39,875 nt of DNA. Source: Elusimicrobiota bacterium (GTDB lineage Bacteria; Elusimicrobiota; Elusimicrobia; UBA1565; UBA9628). Below the pieces are notes generated by a model that saw only the letters and a program-made list of their open reading frames with translations, did no database searches and was not told the origin of the DNA. The stretch lies in assembly GCA_027451985.1 (NCBI GenBank), contig DAIDHS010000023.1:1-39875 (forward strand), read 5' to 3'. How positions within the stretch are numbered: the first letter of the stretch is position 1; every line of letters begins with the position of its first letter. The translations under genes were made by a program, and so were the position numbers. Shown in pieces: positions 1,367-28,170 of the stretch.

Positions 1367-1449
1367 GCGGTCTTCGCCCATGCCAGCCATACGACCGGGG
1401 GCGCCGGAAAGTTCCAGGGGCGGCGGAGCTTGTTCCCGTTCAGCAACGC

Positions 1450-7677: not shown

Positions 7678-9690
7678 TCAGGCCGCCCCAACACTCATCA
7701 TCTCGGCGATCTCGTCTTCGATTTTCTTGAGATCGGTCTCGATGTCCGCAAGCGGCCGCGGCGGAACGTATTTGTAGAAGTATCGGTTGAAATTGATTTC
7801 ATAGCCGATTTTGGTCTTGGATTCGTCCACCCAGGCGTCGGGCGCGTGCGGCAAAACTTCCCGGCGCATGTAGTCGTCCACTTTTTCCTTGAGCGGAACG
7901 TTCTCGTAGTCCCTCAACTCGGGATCGGGCTCGGGGCGGCCTTCGGAGTCCCTGCAAACCACGGCGGTCTCGTCGCGCTCGGAGAGCGCGTCCAAAACGG
8001 CCTTGAAAACCGTCGCGGGAACCCGGACACCGTTCTTCTTAAAAGCAGCCTCCAACAAGGCGATGAATTTCCCGCGGCTTTTGACGGTCCCCTGGCCGGC
8101 CAAGGCGTCCAAGGCCGCGAGAATTTCTTGCTGAAGCTTTTTCCCTTCCGCGATTTCCGTTTGCGCGGACCGGGCGTCCTTGCGCTTGCGGCTCTCCGCG
8201 AGTCGCGCGAACGCGGGCGCCTCCCGAAGGCGCGCCAGGCGCTCCTTATCTGCGGCGAAATTAAGCTTTAAGGGCCGCTCGACCGTGACGCGCCGGCAGC
8301 CGAAATCGGAGTTGCCGAAAATCCGCACGTGTTCGCCTTCCTTGAAATCCCCGTAGAGGCGCGCGATCTCATGGCGCTGCTCCTCGCAAATCTCATTGCG
8401 CTTGTTGCCCAGGCTCTTGCGCATCTTCTTGAAAAATCCGGTTCCGTCCACAAGCTGAATTTTGCCGCGGCGGCTTTTCTCCTTGCGGTTGGTCACAATC
8501 CACAGGTAGGTGGAAATGCCGGTGTTGTAGAAGAGCTGGTCCGGCAGGGCGACGACGGCCTCAAGGCGGTCGTTTTCGATAATCCAGCGGCGAATCTCGC
8601 TCTCGCCCGAGCCCGCGCCGCCGGTAAAAAGCGGCGAGCCGTTGAAGACGATGGCCAGCCTTGTTCCGCCGCCCTTCGCGTCCTTCATCTTGCTCATCAT
8701 GTGCTGAAGGAACAAGAAGGAGCCGTCGTTGATGCGCGGAAGCCCCGCGCCGAAGCGCCCGCCGAAGCCTTCTTCCTCGCTTTCCCGGCGGATAAAGTTT
8801 TCCTCCGGCTTCCACTCCACGCCGAAAGGAGGGTTCGCCAGCATGTAGTCGAAGGTCCTGCCCTTGAAGAAATCCTCGGTGAAGCTATTGCCGAAACGGA
8901 TATTCTCTATGTCCTGGCCCTTGATCATCATGTCGGAGCCGCAAATCGCGTAAGACTGATCGTTGTAGTCTTGGCCGAAGACGAAGAGTTCGGCGTCGGG
9001 ATTCAACTCCCGGATGTATTCCTCGGAAACCGAGAGCATGCCGCCCGTGCCGCAGGCCGGGTCGAACAAGGTTTTAACCGCGCCCTTGCGGGTCAGGCTT
9101 TCGCCGTCCGGGGAAAAGAGCAAATCAACCATCAAGCGGATGACTTCCCTGGGGGTGAAGTGATCTCCGGCCTCCTCGTTGGAGGCCTCGTTGAAGCGCC
9201 GGATGAGTTCTTCAAATATATAGCCCATCTCGATGTTGGAGACCTTATCCGGGTGCAAATCGATGTCGCAAAACTTTGAAACGAGCAGAAAGAGCCTGTC
9301 TTTCTTATCCAGATTGGCGATGTGCTCTTCAAACCCGAAGTGATCGATGATTTCCTTGGCCTGACTGGAGAAGCCCTTCATGTAATCCGTCAGGTTGGCG
9401 GCGATATTGGCCGGATCGCCTTTGAGCCGCTGGAAGGTAAATCGGCTGGTGTTATGAAACTTCTGTCCGGCGGCTTTATTGAGGAGCGGCTCCAGATTCT
9501 TGAGCTTGCCGCCTTTTAATTCCTGCGCTTTTTTTAAAACTTTGTCCTTGGTGGGCTCCAGAACGCAGTCGAGGCGCCGCAGCACCGTCATCGGGAGCAT
9601 GACGTCTTTATACTGGTTGGGGCGGTAGGGCCCGCGCAGAAGGTCCGCCACGGACCAGATGAAATTGGCCTTCTCGTTAAAATTATTCAT
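7678..9690 (-). CDS. hsdM: type I restriction enzyme, methylase subunit
   Basis: This 670-residue adenine-N6 methyltransferase partners HsdS and protects host DNA. HsdM_N helical domain motifs are in the first 150 residues (FIWSVADLLRG, VMLPMTVLRRLD). The AdoMet site DPACGTGGM is at 210-218 and the catalytic NPPF at 286-289. FTPREVIRLM precedes the AdoMet site, as usual. A charged C-terminal extension beyond about residue 490 makes it longer than the classical 500-residue form; several type I families share this. ATG 9690 is preceded by AGAGGG. It is the first gene of the operon, and the SIR2-domain gene starts eight bases after it. Confidence 0.96.
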   Translation of the reverse strand: MNNFNEKANFIWSVADLLRGPYRPNQYKDVMLPMTVLRRLDCVLEPTKDKVLKKAQELKGGKLKNLEPLLNKAAGQKFHNTSRFTFQRLKGDPANIAANLTDYMKGFSSQAKEIIDHFGFEEHIANLDKKDRLFLLVSKFCDIDLHPDKVSNIEMGYIFEELIRRFNEASNEEAGDHFTPREVIRLMVDLLFSPDGESLTRKGAVKTLFDPACGTGGMLSVSEEYIRELNPDAELFVFGQDYNDQSYAICGSDMMIKGQDIENIRFGNSFTEDFFKGRTFDYMLANPPFGVEWKPEENFIRRESEEEGFGGRFGAGLPRINDGSFLFLQHMMSKMKDAKGGGTRLAIVFNGSPLFTGGAGSGESEIRRWIIENDRLEAVVALPDQLFYNTGISTYLWIVTNRKEKSRRGKIQLVDGTGFFKKMRKSLGNKRNEICEEQRHEIARLYGDFKEGEHVRIFGNSDFGCRRVTVERPLKLNFAADKERLARLREAPAFARLAESRKRKDARSAQTEIAEGKKLQQEILAALDALAGQGTVKSRGKFIALLEAAFKKNGVRVPATVFKAVLDALSERDETAVVCRDSEGRPEPDPELRDYENVPLKEKVDDYMRREVLPHAPDAWVDESKTKIGYEINFNRYFYKYVPPRPLADIETDLKKIEDEIAEMMSVGAA

Positions 9691-9756
9691 TGGATTTTTT
9701 CCCTCTGTTGATATTACAAAATCACCATCGGGAACTTTCCTGGGCGCGCTGCTTGA

Positions 9757-9869
9757 TGGGGATCCCCCTGGATAGGCCTAGGGGATCCCCCCGTCATCCC
9801 CTATTGATCCCCCCAGGATCCCCGATCCGATCCCCCCAGATCCCCTAGGATCCCCCCTATCTACCCCCC
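9757..9869. repeat. periodic GATC-C-tract tandem repeat
   Basis: Upstream of hsdM lie four degenerate units of 20-23 bp, each GATCCCCCC + spacer + a shorter C run (starts 9784, 9806, 9829, 9849). A fifth unit is only begun (GATCCAGG, from 9870), and a GGGGATCCCCC copy precedes them. C runs start at 9787, 9798, 9809, 9820, 9832, 9842, 9852 and 9864, about 11 bp apart, with lengths 6, 4, 6, 4, 6, 4, 6, 6. On the minus strand, which is the coding strand of hsdM, this is a series of G runs with loops of 4-8 bases, able in principle to form G-quadruplexes. Confidence 0.8.
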
Positions 9870-10025
9870 GATCCAGGTATAAGACCCGTGCGGCCCCTTG
9901 CCGTTGAGGCTCACCCAATACTGCACGTCCGGGTGGTCGTAGTCCTTGGCGGCATCGCGCTTAAGGCGGGCATCTCGAGTTTTTGCCCGGCGCGCCTGCG
10001 GATGTTGTCTTTGGCGGGAGACGGC
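9861..10025 (-). pseudogene. possible 3' gene remnant
   Basis: Directly after the TGA of the secreted protein gene, in the same frame, 54 codons run open to a TAG at 9863-9861. The last part, KDYDHPDVQYWVSLNGKGP then HGSYTWIGG, looks like a genuine protein C-terminus in composition and third-base GC. The preceding 25 codons are arginine-rich and look non-coding. No start codon is present. It could be the tail of a gene truncated by deletion, or chance. I do not recognise a family. Nothing else is seen in 9870-10025. Confidence 0.2.
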
Positions 10026-10616
10026 TCAGCTCTTGCCGGAGACGGTCAAGTTGAAGAGCACGACTTTTTGCGCGCGCTCCTGGACCTCTTTGACCATGAC
10101 CAAGTGGCTGAGCATCTGGTTCAAGAGCGCGTCCACGGCCGGCATGCGCTTCAAGGCCTTGCGGTTGGCCGCGCGCTCGGACATGAGCGCCTTAATCTTC
10201 GCGTCGATTTCCGGCATGGGCGCGTTGCCGGGCGCGGGGGCCTGGTTCAGCTCCAAAACCAAGAAGCCGTCCTTTTTGACGGCATCCAAAGCGGCCTGCG
10301 CTTGGGCGCTAGAAAGCCGGTAGGACAGCTGCTGCGTGTGCGCGATTTTGCTCGACGCGAAGTTCTGAAGCGGAAAAGAAAGGCTGGCGCCCTGATCTTT
10401 GAACGCGCCCAGCACCTTGGGCAAATCCGTCTTGAGGGAGTCCACCCGGATGGTCGCGGTCCACTCTTCCTTATAAGAAGACAGCTGGTAGGCGTCGAGC
10501 CAATTAAAGGATTGCGCGGCGGTCCGCGTCTTGTGCCGGCGCGGCGCGCGCGCGGCCAGAGCGGGGACGGACAGAAGAAGAAGGACCGGAAGAAACCGCA
10601 CCGCGGCGCCCCTCAT
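10026..10616 (-). CDS. secreted protein of unknown function
   Basis: This 196-residue protein has a clear signal peptide (about residues 1-22, ending VPALAARA). The mature part has an alpha/beta pattern, WTATIRVDSLKTDLPKVLGA then QQLSYRLSSAQAQAALDAVK, and a helical, charged C-terminal third. It weakly recalls DUF4349-type envelope proteins, which compare a residue window across a ferredoxin-like fold, but the link is not secure. Its ATG overlaps the atpC stop (ATGA), so it is read as the last gene of the ATP synthase operon. Any role in the ATP synthase is unsupported. Confidence 0.7.
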   Translation of the reverse strand: MRGAAVRFLPVLLLLSVPALAARAPRRHKTRTAAQSFNWLDAYQLSSYKEEWTATIRVDSLKTDLPKVLGAFKDQGASLSFPLQNFASSKIAHTQQLSYRLSSAQAQAALDAVKKDGFLVLELNQAPAPGNAPMPEIDAKIKALMSERAANRKALKRMPAVDALLNQMLSHLVMVKEVQERAQKVVLFNLTVSGKS

Positions 10617-11053
10617 TCCCCCAACCTCGCGCGCTCATGGCTGTGGCGATGGCGCCGCGCGACCTTCATCTGCGCCATGGCCCAACGCATCGCGCCTTCG
10701 GCGCCGGCCAGTTCCGCCGGGTCGATGTCTTTTCGGGCCAAGGCGGCCTTGGCCTTTTCCGCGGCCTGGCGCGCCTTCTCCTCGTCTATTTCGGCGGCCA
10801 TCTCCGCGGTCTCGACAAAAAGCCGCACGCGCGCGGGCGAAACCTCGGCGAAGCCCCCCGCCACGGCGAAGGCCGAAACGCCCGCGGGCGTTTTGAGGCG
10901 CACCTCGCCGTGGCGCAGCTGCGCCAAGTAGGGCTCGTGACCGGGCAGAATCCCCATCTCGCCGTCCCACGCGGGCACCACCACGGACTCGGCCTCGACC
11001 TTCGAGACCGTGCGCTCGGGCGAGACGATTTCGACCGCGATGGTTTTGGCCAT
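10613..11053 (-). CDS. atpC: ATP synthase epsilon subunit
   Basis: This 146-residue central-stalk subunit of the F1 sector couples rotation and can inhibit ATP hydrolysis. The N-terminal beta-sandwich is typical: IAVEIVSPERTVSKVEAESV, then WDGEMGILPGHEPYLAQL and GGFAEV. A C-terminal helical pair (EKARQAAEKAKAALARKD) follows. The tail beyond residue 125 is basic and longer than in short epsilon subunits. It lies one base after atpD and overlaps the following secreted-protein gene by ATGA. Confidence 0.95.
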   Translation of the reverse strand: MAKTIAVEIVSPERTVSKVEAESVVVPAWDGEMGILPGHEPYLAQLRHGEVRLKTPAGVSAFAVAGGFAEVSPARVRLFVETAEMAAEIDEEKARQAAEKAKAALARKDIDPAELAGAEGAMRWAMAQMKVARRHRHSHERARLGE

Positions 11054-24611: not shown

Positions 24612-24641
24612 ATTGATTCGGATCAATTGATCGGGATCAAT
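24612..24641. promoter_or_regulatory. tandem operator-like dyads
   Basis: Two 16-bp dyads overlap by two bases: ATTGATTCGGATCAAT (24612-24627) and ATTGATCGGGATCAAT (24626-24641). They differ at two central positions. The 14-bp offset and the position 25 bp upstream of a TATAAT box suggest binding sites for a dimeric repressor or activator of the thiolase gene. The regulator is unknown. Confidence 0.6.
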
Positions 24642-24665
24642 AGAGCGGGATCTTCGCCAAAAAAC

Positions 24666-26925: not shown

Positions 26926-28050
26926 CTAGGCGCGCCCCGCGGTCTCGGCGAGCTTGGCGGATCGCGCGGACTTCGCAGCGGCCGAGGATTTCTCGGCCGC
27001 TGCGGTCTTTTCCGGATCCTCCGCGGCCTCCTGGGCTTCCGGCTCGGATGGATTCAAAAACTTCTGGCGCAAAATCGCCTCGATTTTTCCAGCCGTGTCC
27101 GCATGTTCTTTCAAGTAAGCCTTGGCGTTTTCCCGGCCCTGGCCCAGGCGTTCTCCCTCGTAAAGAAACCACGACCCGGACTTCTCAATCACGCCGGCGT
27201 CGACGCCGAGATCCAGGATGCAGCCCTCGCGCGAAACACCCTGCCCCGCACGCATCTCAAACTCCGCGGTACGGTAGGGAGGCGCGACCTTGTTCTTGAC
27301 CACCTTCACGCGCGCACGCACGCCCACGATGGCGTCGCCTTCCTTAATATTCTCGGTGCGGCGGATATCCAGACGCACGGTGGCGTAGAACTTAAGCGCC
27401 AAGCCGCCGGTGGTGGTCTCCGGGTTGCCGAACATCACGCCGATTTTATGGCGGATCTGATTGATGAAGATGAGGCAGGTCCGGCTCTTAGATGTGGAGG
27501 CCGTGAGCTTGCGCAGGGCTTGGCTCATCAGTCGCGCCTGCAGGCCCATGTGCGAATCGCCCATTTCGCCTTCAATTTCCGCCTTGGGCACCAGAGCCGC
27601 GACTGAATCAATGACGATGACGTCTAAAGCGCTTGAACGCACCAGCTTCTCAGTGATTTCAAGAGCTTCTTCACCCGAGTCCGGCTGGGCGATTAAAAGG
27701 TTGTCGATGTCCACGCCCAGGAGCTTGGCATAGGCCGGGTCCATGGCGTGTTCGGCGTCGACGTAGGCGGCCGAGCCCCCGAGGCGCTGCGCCGCCGCCG
27801 CGGCCTGCAGGGCCAGCGTGGTCTTGCCCGAGGATTCGGGGCCGTAAATCTCAATGATGCGCCCGCGGGGGAATCCCCCGACTCCCAGGGCCAGGTCCAA
27901 GGATAAAATCCCGGTGGGAATCGCCTCGACCTTGATTTTGGCCGCGCGGTCTCCCAGCTTCATGATGGCCTCGCGTCCGTACGCCTTCTCGATTTGCGCC
28001 AAGGCCAGCTCCAGCGCCTTGCCCTTTCCGTTCTCGGTCGTTGTTCCCAT
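26926..28050 (-). CDS. recA: recombinase RecA
   Basis: This 374-residue recombination filament protein has Walker A GPESSGKT (70-77), [12 protein letters not shown]-like [12 protein letters not shown] and the DNA-loop L2 region GNPETTTGG. It promotes strand exchange and LexA self-cleavage. The C-terminal 45 residues are a low-complexity Ala/Glu/Lys tail. ATG 28050 lies behind a leader of about 115 bases. The Xer-type gene follows in the same frame only 15 bases after the TAG stop. Confidence 0.98.
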
Positions 28051-28170
28051 GGTTTTATTTCCCCTGTTAGGCCTCGCCGCTGGCGGGCCGGATTAAATTC
28101 TACCACATCCCTCTTACGACCGCGGCCATCCGAAAGTTCCCCGCTTCCCGCAGCGCCGAAGCGAGCTTGT

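Follow-up and report, generated by a model that had tools for sequence, protein, structure and literature searches.

The G-tract array upstream of hsdM probably belongs, on balance, to a genus-level family of mosaic elements, hereafter islands, that are rich in palindromes and dispersed between genes; among them it is short and strand-biased. This assignment is made because the array shares the vocabulary of the islands, has short matches to two of them (C14b and C7) and lies at the same kind of place. The window, the whole stretch of 39,875 nucleotides that was analysed, holds the array between a decayed gene and a type I restriction operon, and the comparison extends to other parts of the same genome (G000), to the sole other genome of the genus examined (G001) and to more distant relatives.

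Layout and folding potential of the array

The features at the locus are as follows.

9757-9869, minus strand: G-tract array, with nine G-runs of 4-6, GATCCCC/GGGGATC words, and two CCTAGG and four GGATCC palindromes
9764-9768 (5), 9787-9792 (6), 9798-9801 (4), 9809-9814 (6), 9820-9823 (4), minus strand: G-runs of the array, with their lengths
9832-9837 (6), 9842-9845 (4), 9852-9857 (6), 9864-9869 (6), minus strand: the remaining G-runs
9832-9869, minus strand: first quadruplex-capable motif from the motif scan, four runs of at least four G with loops of 1-7
9787-9823, minus strand: second quadruplex-capable motif from the same scan, four runs of at least four G with loops of 1-7
9731-9738, plus strand: GGAACTTT half-motif at the array edge, its CGTA half absent (TTGA at 9753-9756)
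9861-10025, minus strand: gene relic of a membrane / winged-helix-tail family, an N-terminal piece joined to the tail ...YTWIGG
10026-10616, minus strand: P0002, an unnamed gene that follows the ATP synthase epsilon gene and has the relic downstream on its strand
7678-9690, minus strand: hsdM (N6_Mtase and HsdM_N), first gene of the type I restriction operon (hsdM, SIR2-like gene, hsdS, hsdR)

The first-pass annotation had described eight minus-strand G-runs with the lengths 6-4-6-4-6-4-6-6, recurring every 10-12 bp, and this pattern is confirmed. Specifically, the eight runs occupy 9787-9869 (as C-runs in plus-strand coordinates) with start-to-start distances of 11, 11, 11, 12, 10, 10 and 12 bp, and one extra run, at 9764-9768, lies 23 bp before them. 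Two further G-runs on the plus strand (9758-9761 and 9781-9784) make GGGGATCCCC palindromes. The division into four degenerate units of about 21 bp is likewise fair, given that Tandem Repeats Finder reports a 22-bp unit in 3.4 copies with the top score of the window (79), in addition to a 10-bp unit in 4.9 copies. The proposed helical phasing stands in part: the period is regular, with a phase coherence of R = 0.91 at 11.0 bp that 5000 random-spacer models, a weak null in which the spacers are geometric, never reached, whereas at 10.5 bp R is 0.57, so that the 11-bp spacing drifts against the 10.5-bp helix and the match is approximate. The 11-bp and 22-bp units suggest that the array would have grown by local duplication of words of these lengths.

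The word GATCCCC, which occurs 11 times in the window, is ordinary in number (shuffle mean 9.9), while 9 of the 11 copies are packed into 98 bp. No long match to the array was found elsewhere in the genome, and a triple-GATCCCC pattern search of 198 genomes of the phylum returned this array, one unrelated repeat in G069 and nothing more. No second genome carrying this locus was among those examined. Plasmid records, searched with a 341-bp query, matched it over four short stretches (28-46 bp), all in the flank, and Rfam gave no match at the array, its sole match in the window being a 16S rRNA piece at 1-443. Elsewhere in the window, a small GATC-rich tandem repeat, ATTGATCCGGATCA in 2.9 copies, lies between genes at 24612-24652.

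The potential for G-quadruplexes that the annotation had raised is supported by motif, on sequence grounds. In 836 kb sampled of the genome, exactly two (G4+N1-7)x4 motifs occur, both in the array, against 48 of the looser G3+ motifs; the pattern GGGGN{5,8}GGGGN{5,8}GGGG is found at three places in the whole genome, namely the array, the C14 island and one place on C6. The predicted RNA folding energy of the array goes from -61.8 to -74.1 kcal/mol once quadruplexes are allowed, and quadruplex formation is plausible. With quadruplexes left out, RNA of the hsdM strand folds no better than shuffles (z 0.04), the opposite strand gives z -1.2, and folding of the plus strand with DNA parameters gives z -2.1 against shuffles. 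An intrinsic terminator was also considered for the array and rejected: the four sites with a GC-rich stem followed by a T-run in 9400-10800 all lie outside it.

A family of palindromic islands

The islands came to light because weak matches of the array within its own genome led to them. They occupy about 120-370 bp between genes and consist of short palindromic words and runs of G or C; the words, which are degenerate, include GATCC, CCTAGG, AGGCCT, GTATAC, GGCCAACTTGGCC and CCAGACGTCTGG.

Islands in this genome (G000), nine: C1, C7, C8, C14 (two, C14a and C14b), C18, C19, C55, and the array in C23
Islands in G001, four: C157, C185, C248 and C271
Island-bearing loci: L140, L148, L149, L270, L154, L157, L314 and L269 (G000); L274, L272, L273 and L323 (G001)

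These counts are a minimum, as reading covered about one third of the genome, some of it selected through matches. A vocabulary scan of the 836 kb sample returned the six islands already known there and one marginal stretch; no island was present in 400 kb of the genome taken regardless of matches, or in 361 kb from four other genera. Over the whole genome, intergenic DNA shows no enrichment of GATC or GGCC and a 3.2-fold enrichment of CTAG (2.4-fold in a second sample), and the islands are therefore discrete. Because palindrome coverage misses the C55 island (L303), absence was judged by the vocabulary score. Simply counting 6-bp palindromes is of no use in a genome this rich in GC, where GCGC words dominate. 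An excess of CCTAGG near stop codons was dropped as evidence, being confounded by TAG stop codons.

Against dinucleotide shuffles, |z| exceeds 3 for 11 of the 13 islands, all but the array and G001:C157, in one or more measures of repetition or folding. Other islands have blocks of 40-154 bp in common, with homologous blocks both between species (C55 and G001:C248, 72 bp at 87.5%) and within the genome (C14a and C19, 154 bp at 77%), and modules such as CCAGACGTCTGCCAGACC and GGCCAACTTGGCC recur among islands, also between species. As a set, the islands resemble bacterial BIMEs, or REP palindromes, which are mosaics of short palindromic modules between genes that vary in order between loci. The islands likewise consist of dispersed palindromic modules in varying order, but they occupy about nine places rather than hundreds and are without a fixed REP consensus. 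The dispersal in varying order is a property of the set, and the array alone shows one palindromic module. A further likeness is to Volvox organelle DNA, for which the excerpted account (PMC2670323) describes short self-complementary repeats piled up between genes, nested and in both orientations. The islands, too, are short self-complementary repeats in intergenic DNA, whereas the Volvox repeats are organellar and, as that excerpt has it, fill most of the non-coding DNA, and the islands are rare and tied to gene families. Among the papers listed by the literature searches, none on such islands was seen.

The evidence that places the array in this family is mainly one of words. Specifically, 64 of its 106 8-mers recur in the 12 other islands, against at most 22 in any of 3,520 background segments, and its leave-one-out vocabulary score is 62 of 100, where 228 background pieces of 3 kb score 25 at the most. 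Much of this match follows from composition (36 of the 64), in that the shuffled array gives 36.1 +/- 6.0 in the same test, with a maximum of 52 in 200 shuffles. The longest match to an island is one of 29 bp at 86% (C14b), followed by 16 bp at 100% (C7), and no homologous block of at least 40 bp with any island was found. In repeat measures it rises modestly above dinucleotide shuffles (z 1.6 to 2.4, the latter for inverted 8-mers), which makes it the weakest of the 13 islands.

The array might instead be a degenerate, quadruplex-forming simple repeat that acts at a gene end and has no special tie to the islands, of the same kind as the GGGNATC repeats of Xanthomonas and Nostoc. In the excerpted description (PMC4692102), such repeats favour stop codons, the coding strand and positions between genes of the same direction, and they are the known system closest in working to the array, which also lies at a stop codon, on the coding strand and between same-direction genes. 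The array shares their trait of four G-runs able to form a quadruplex, with two such motifs by sequence, it contains GGGGATC words, and its four-tetrad motifs occur nowhere else in the 836 kb; viral contigs, too, contain simple repeats of GGGGATC (L346, L376). Even so, we regard this explanation as unlikely. The GGGNATC repeats, as far as that excerpt describes them, are tandem 7-bp units with many copies per genome, whereas the runs of the array start 10-12 bp apart, with a period of 11 bp rather than 7 and alternating lengths, and it sits at a single locus, embedded in a wider palindromic vocabulary whose words are common to the islands beyond what composition gives. Viral contigs hold 92 stretches with three GATCCCC; the five that were inspected (L333, L346, L376, L399 and L402) are other simple repeats, and the CCAGACGTCTGCCAGACC module is absent from the viral contigs.

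Gene ends, ORF6N genes and a promoter-like motif

Membership of the island family is also suggested by where the array lies. The open stretch between the array and P0002 ends in ...AAKDYDHPDVQYWVSLNGKGPHGSYTWIGG-stop, with its TAG at 9861-9863, between the first two G-runs of the array in reading direction: the first G-run encodes the final two glycines, and the TAG precedes the second. The first half of this relic matches a gene of G001 over 27 residues (59%, E 6.7e-6). Members of the family of that gene (alignment A2) are predicted membrane proteins that have a proline-rich linker and a tail with weak resemblance to winged-helix domains, for which there is no Pfam match above the cut-off; two of its members are homologous to each other at E 7e-34. 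The tail of the relic, YTWIGG, is similar to those of family members, YRWVGP and HWIGP among them, while direct comparison of the relic with the C8 family member found nothing. Given the 27-residue homology and the likeness of the tails in a short relic, its identification as a membrane / winged-helix-tail gene is moderately supported.

Three islands, C8, G001:C157 and G001:C271, begin where a gene of this family ends, its stop codon lying in or against the first island word, and the start of the array likewise coincides with the stop codon of the relic. Island C7 starts at the stop of a gene that has a like architecture and no sequence match to the family. The family member at G000:C2 is truncated and has no island, and the one at G001:C270 runs to the contig end. 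In G085, which belongs to another genus, one family gene ends in CCCCTAGG and is followed by a GGGGTA-type G-tract array (L324, 1330-1495), and another copy (L317) ends in a palindromic mosaic; three of the five readable copies (L325 and L326 in G085, L319 in G223) are without any such element. As a separate observation, L161 of G200, a family genome, has near its middle, just past a stop codon, a hairpin CCTAGGACCC...GGGTCCTAGGG followed by TTTTTTT, which by its sequence is a classic terminator written in CCTAGG words.

These positions bear on a second alternative, according to which the array is private low-complexity drift, the product of slippage in the debris of a broken gene, with no kinship to the islands and no role. 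Such an origin would fit an array that lies against a gene relic, is built of degenerate units and folds as RNA no better than shuffles. It accounts poorly for words shared with the islands beyond composition and for the recurrence of islands at the matching place in relatives of the relic's gene, and we consider it quite improbable.

The second gene kind next to the islands is ORF6N. All four ORF6N genes of the genome adjoin an island, the fourth (C19) having been found by prediction after three were known; at 28 ORF6N loci of other genera there was no island by vocabulary score (at most 26 of 100). Divergent genes flank islands C1, C14b and C55. At L314 (G000:C19, 1090-1160), an ORF6N frame has a TAG inside CCTAGG and otherwise runs to ...AVIGFR at the island start; the gene there is possibly broken.

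Several islands also adjoin the motif GGAACTTT-N14-CGTA, which, by its consensus, looks like an ECF-sigma-like promoter or a damage-response element. It has 14 occurrences at N14 in the G000 sequence examined, against 0-1 at each of ten other spacings, a count that includes two loci fetched because of islands. The motif precedes recA (26926-28050), a Vsr gene, three ORF6N genes and antitoxin-like genes.

28115-28140 and 1390-1415 (minus) in the window: GGAACTTT-N14-CGTA sites
L140, L141, L149, L157, L181, L183, L269 and L314: further GGAACTTT-N14-CGTA sites

The GGAACTTT half at the array edge may be what survives of a full motif.

The restriction operon and the meaning of the islands

The array lies 67 bp from the start codon of hsdM and, as the first-pass annotation had said, on the coding strand of that gene. 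Its stated location holds with respect to the restriction operon, which the array precedes, but the array does not directly adjoin the tail of the ATP synthase operon, since P0002 and the relic intervene. P0002 itself looks like a secreted protein and has relatives in 9 of the 198 genomes searched, its own included. Within the hsd operon, the SIR2-like gene (PF13289; 5822-7669, minus) lies between hsdM and hsdS.

The position of the array invites a regulatory reading, in which operator repeats, phased bending or variable copy number would tune hsdM. A precedent exists in the RptR system, where the excerpted report (PMC12255303) describes direct operator repeats upstream of a type I restriction operon, and the array resembles them in consisting of direct repeats in such a place. 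It differs from them, so far as that excerpt allows comparison, in its sequence, in the lack of an RptR-like gene in place and in not being conserved with hsdM. To assess conservation, 489 hsdM relatives were found and 80 kept, and in the 78 with the gene start on the contig (L072 and L087 were left out) 300 bp upstream were scanned. None has the array and none has more than one GATCCCC; a single GATCCCC occurs in four and a single G3+ motif in two others, against seven and two in the window. Among the RptR-type operator words (TAGCTA, TAGATA, TATCTA and TATATA, of which at least two would be expected), the 300 bp at 9691-9990 contain one TATCTA, at 9858. The open frames between the array and hsdM include no regulator gene, and the phasing is nearer 11 than 10.5 bp. 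With like sequence adjoining unrelated genes in this genome and in the genus, the proposed tie between array and defence operon is not borne out, and a regulatory array seems highly improbable. An effect of the array on hsdM is possible and would be incidental.

The relatives of hsdM are spread over many phyla, with identities up to 82%, and there is a step in GC content near 10,000, from about 56% to 65%; the operon was therefore probably acquired, with array and relic as residents. In the favoured account, the array belongs to the island family, many members of which begin at the 3' end of a gene, chiefly of a membrane / winged-helix-tail gene, or adjoin ORF6N genes. The host gene of this island would most likely have decayed to the relic, leaving the array where it happens to precede hsdM. 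Were transcription from the genes upstream on this strand to run through it, the array would give a G-rich trailer that might fold as a hairpin or quadruplex, which would act at most as a 3'-end structure or as a partial insulator ahead of hsdM.

More tentatively, and with more doubt than confidence, the islands, the array included, could be an undescribed class of mosaic palindromic elements tied to two putative DNA-binding gene kinds (ORF6N and the membrane-anchored proteins with a winged-helix-like tail) and to the promoter-like motif GGAACTTT-N14-CGTA. They might then be platforms to which these proteins bind, or else form the ends of damage-inducible mobile cassettes, with the array as a platform left by its gene. 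Taken together, these results replace a story about one locus, a quadruplex switch for a defence operon, with a genome-level family found beside the same gene families in both species. Should the proteins encoded next to the islands bind or move them, the islands would represent a new kind of bacterial repeat system; if inert, they would offer a clean natural case of palindromic low-complexity DNA growing at gene ends.
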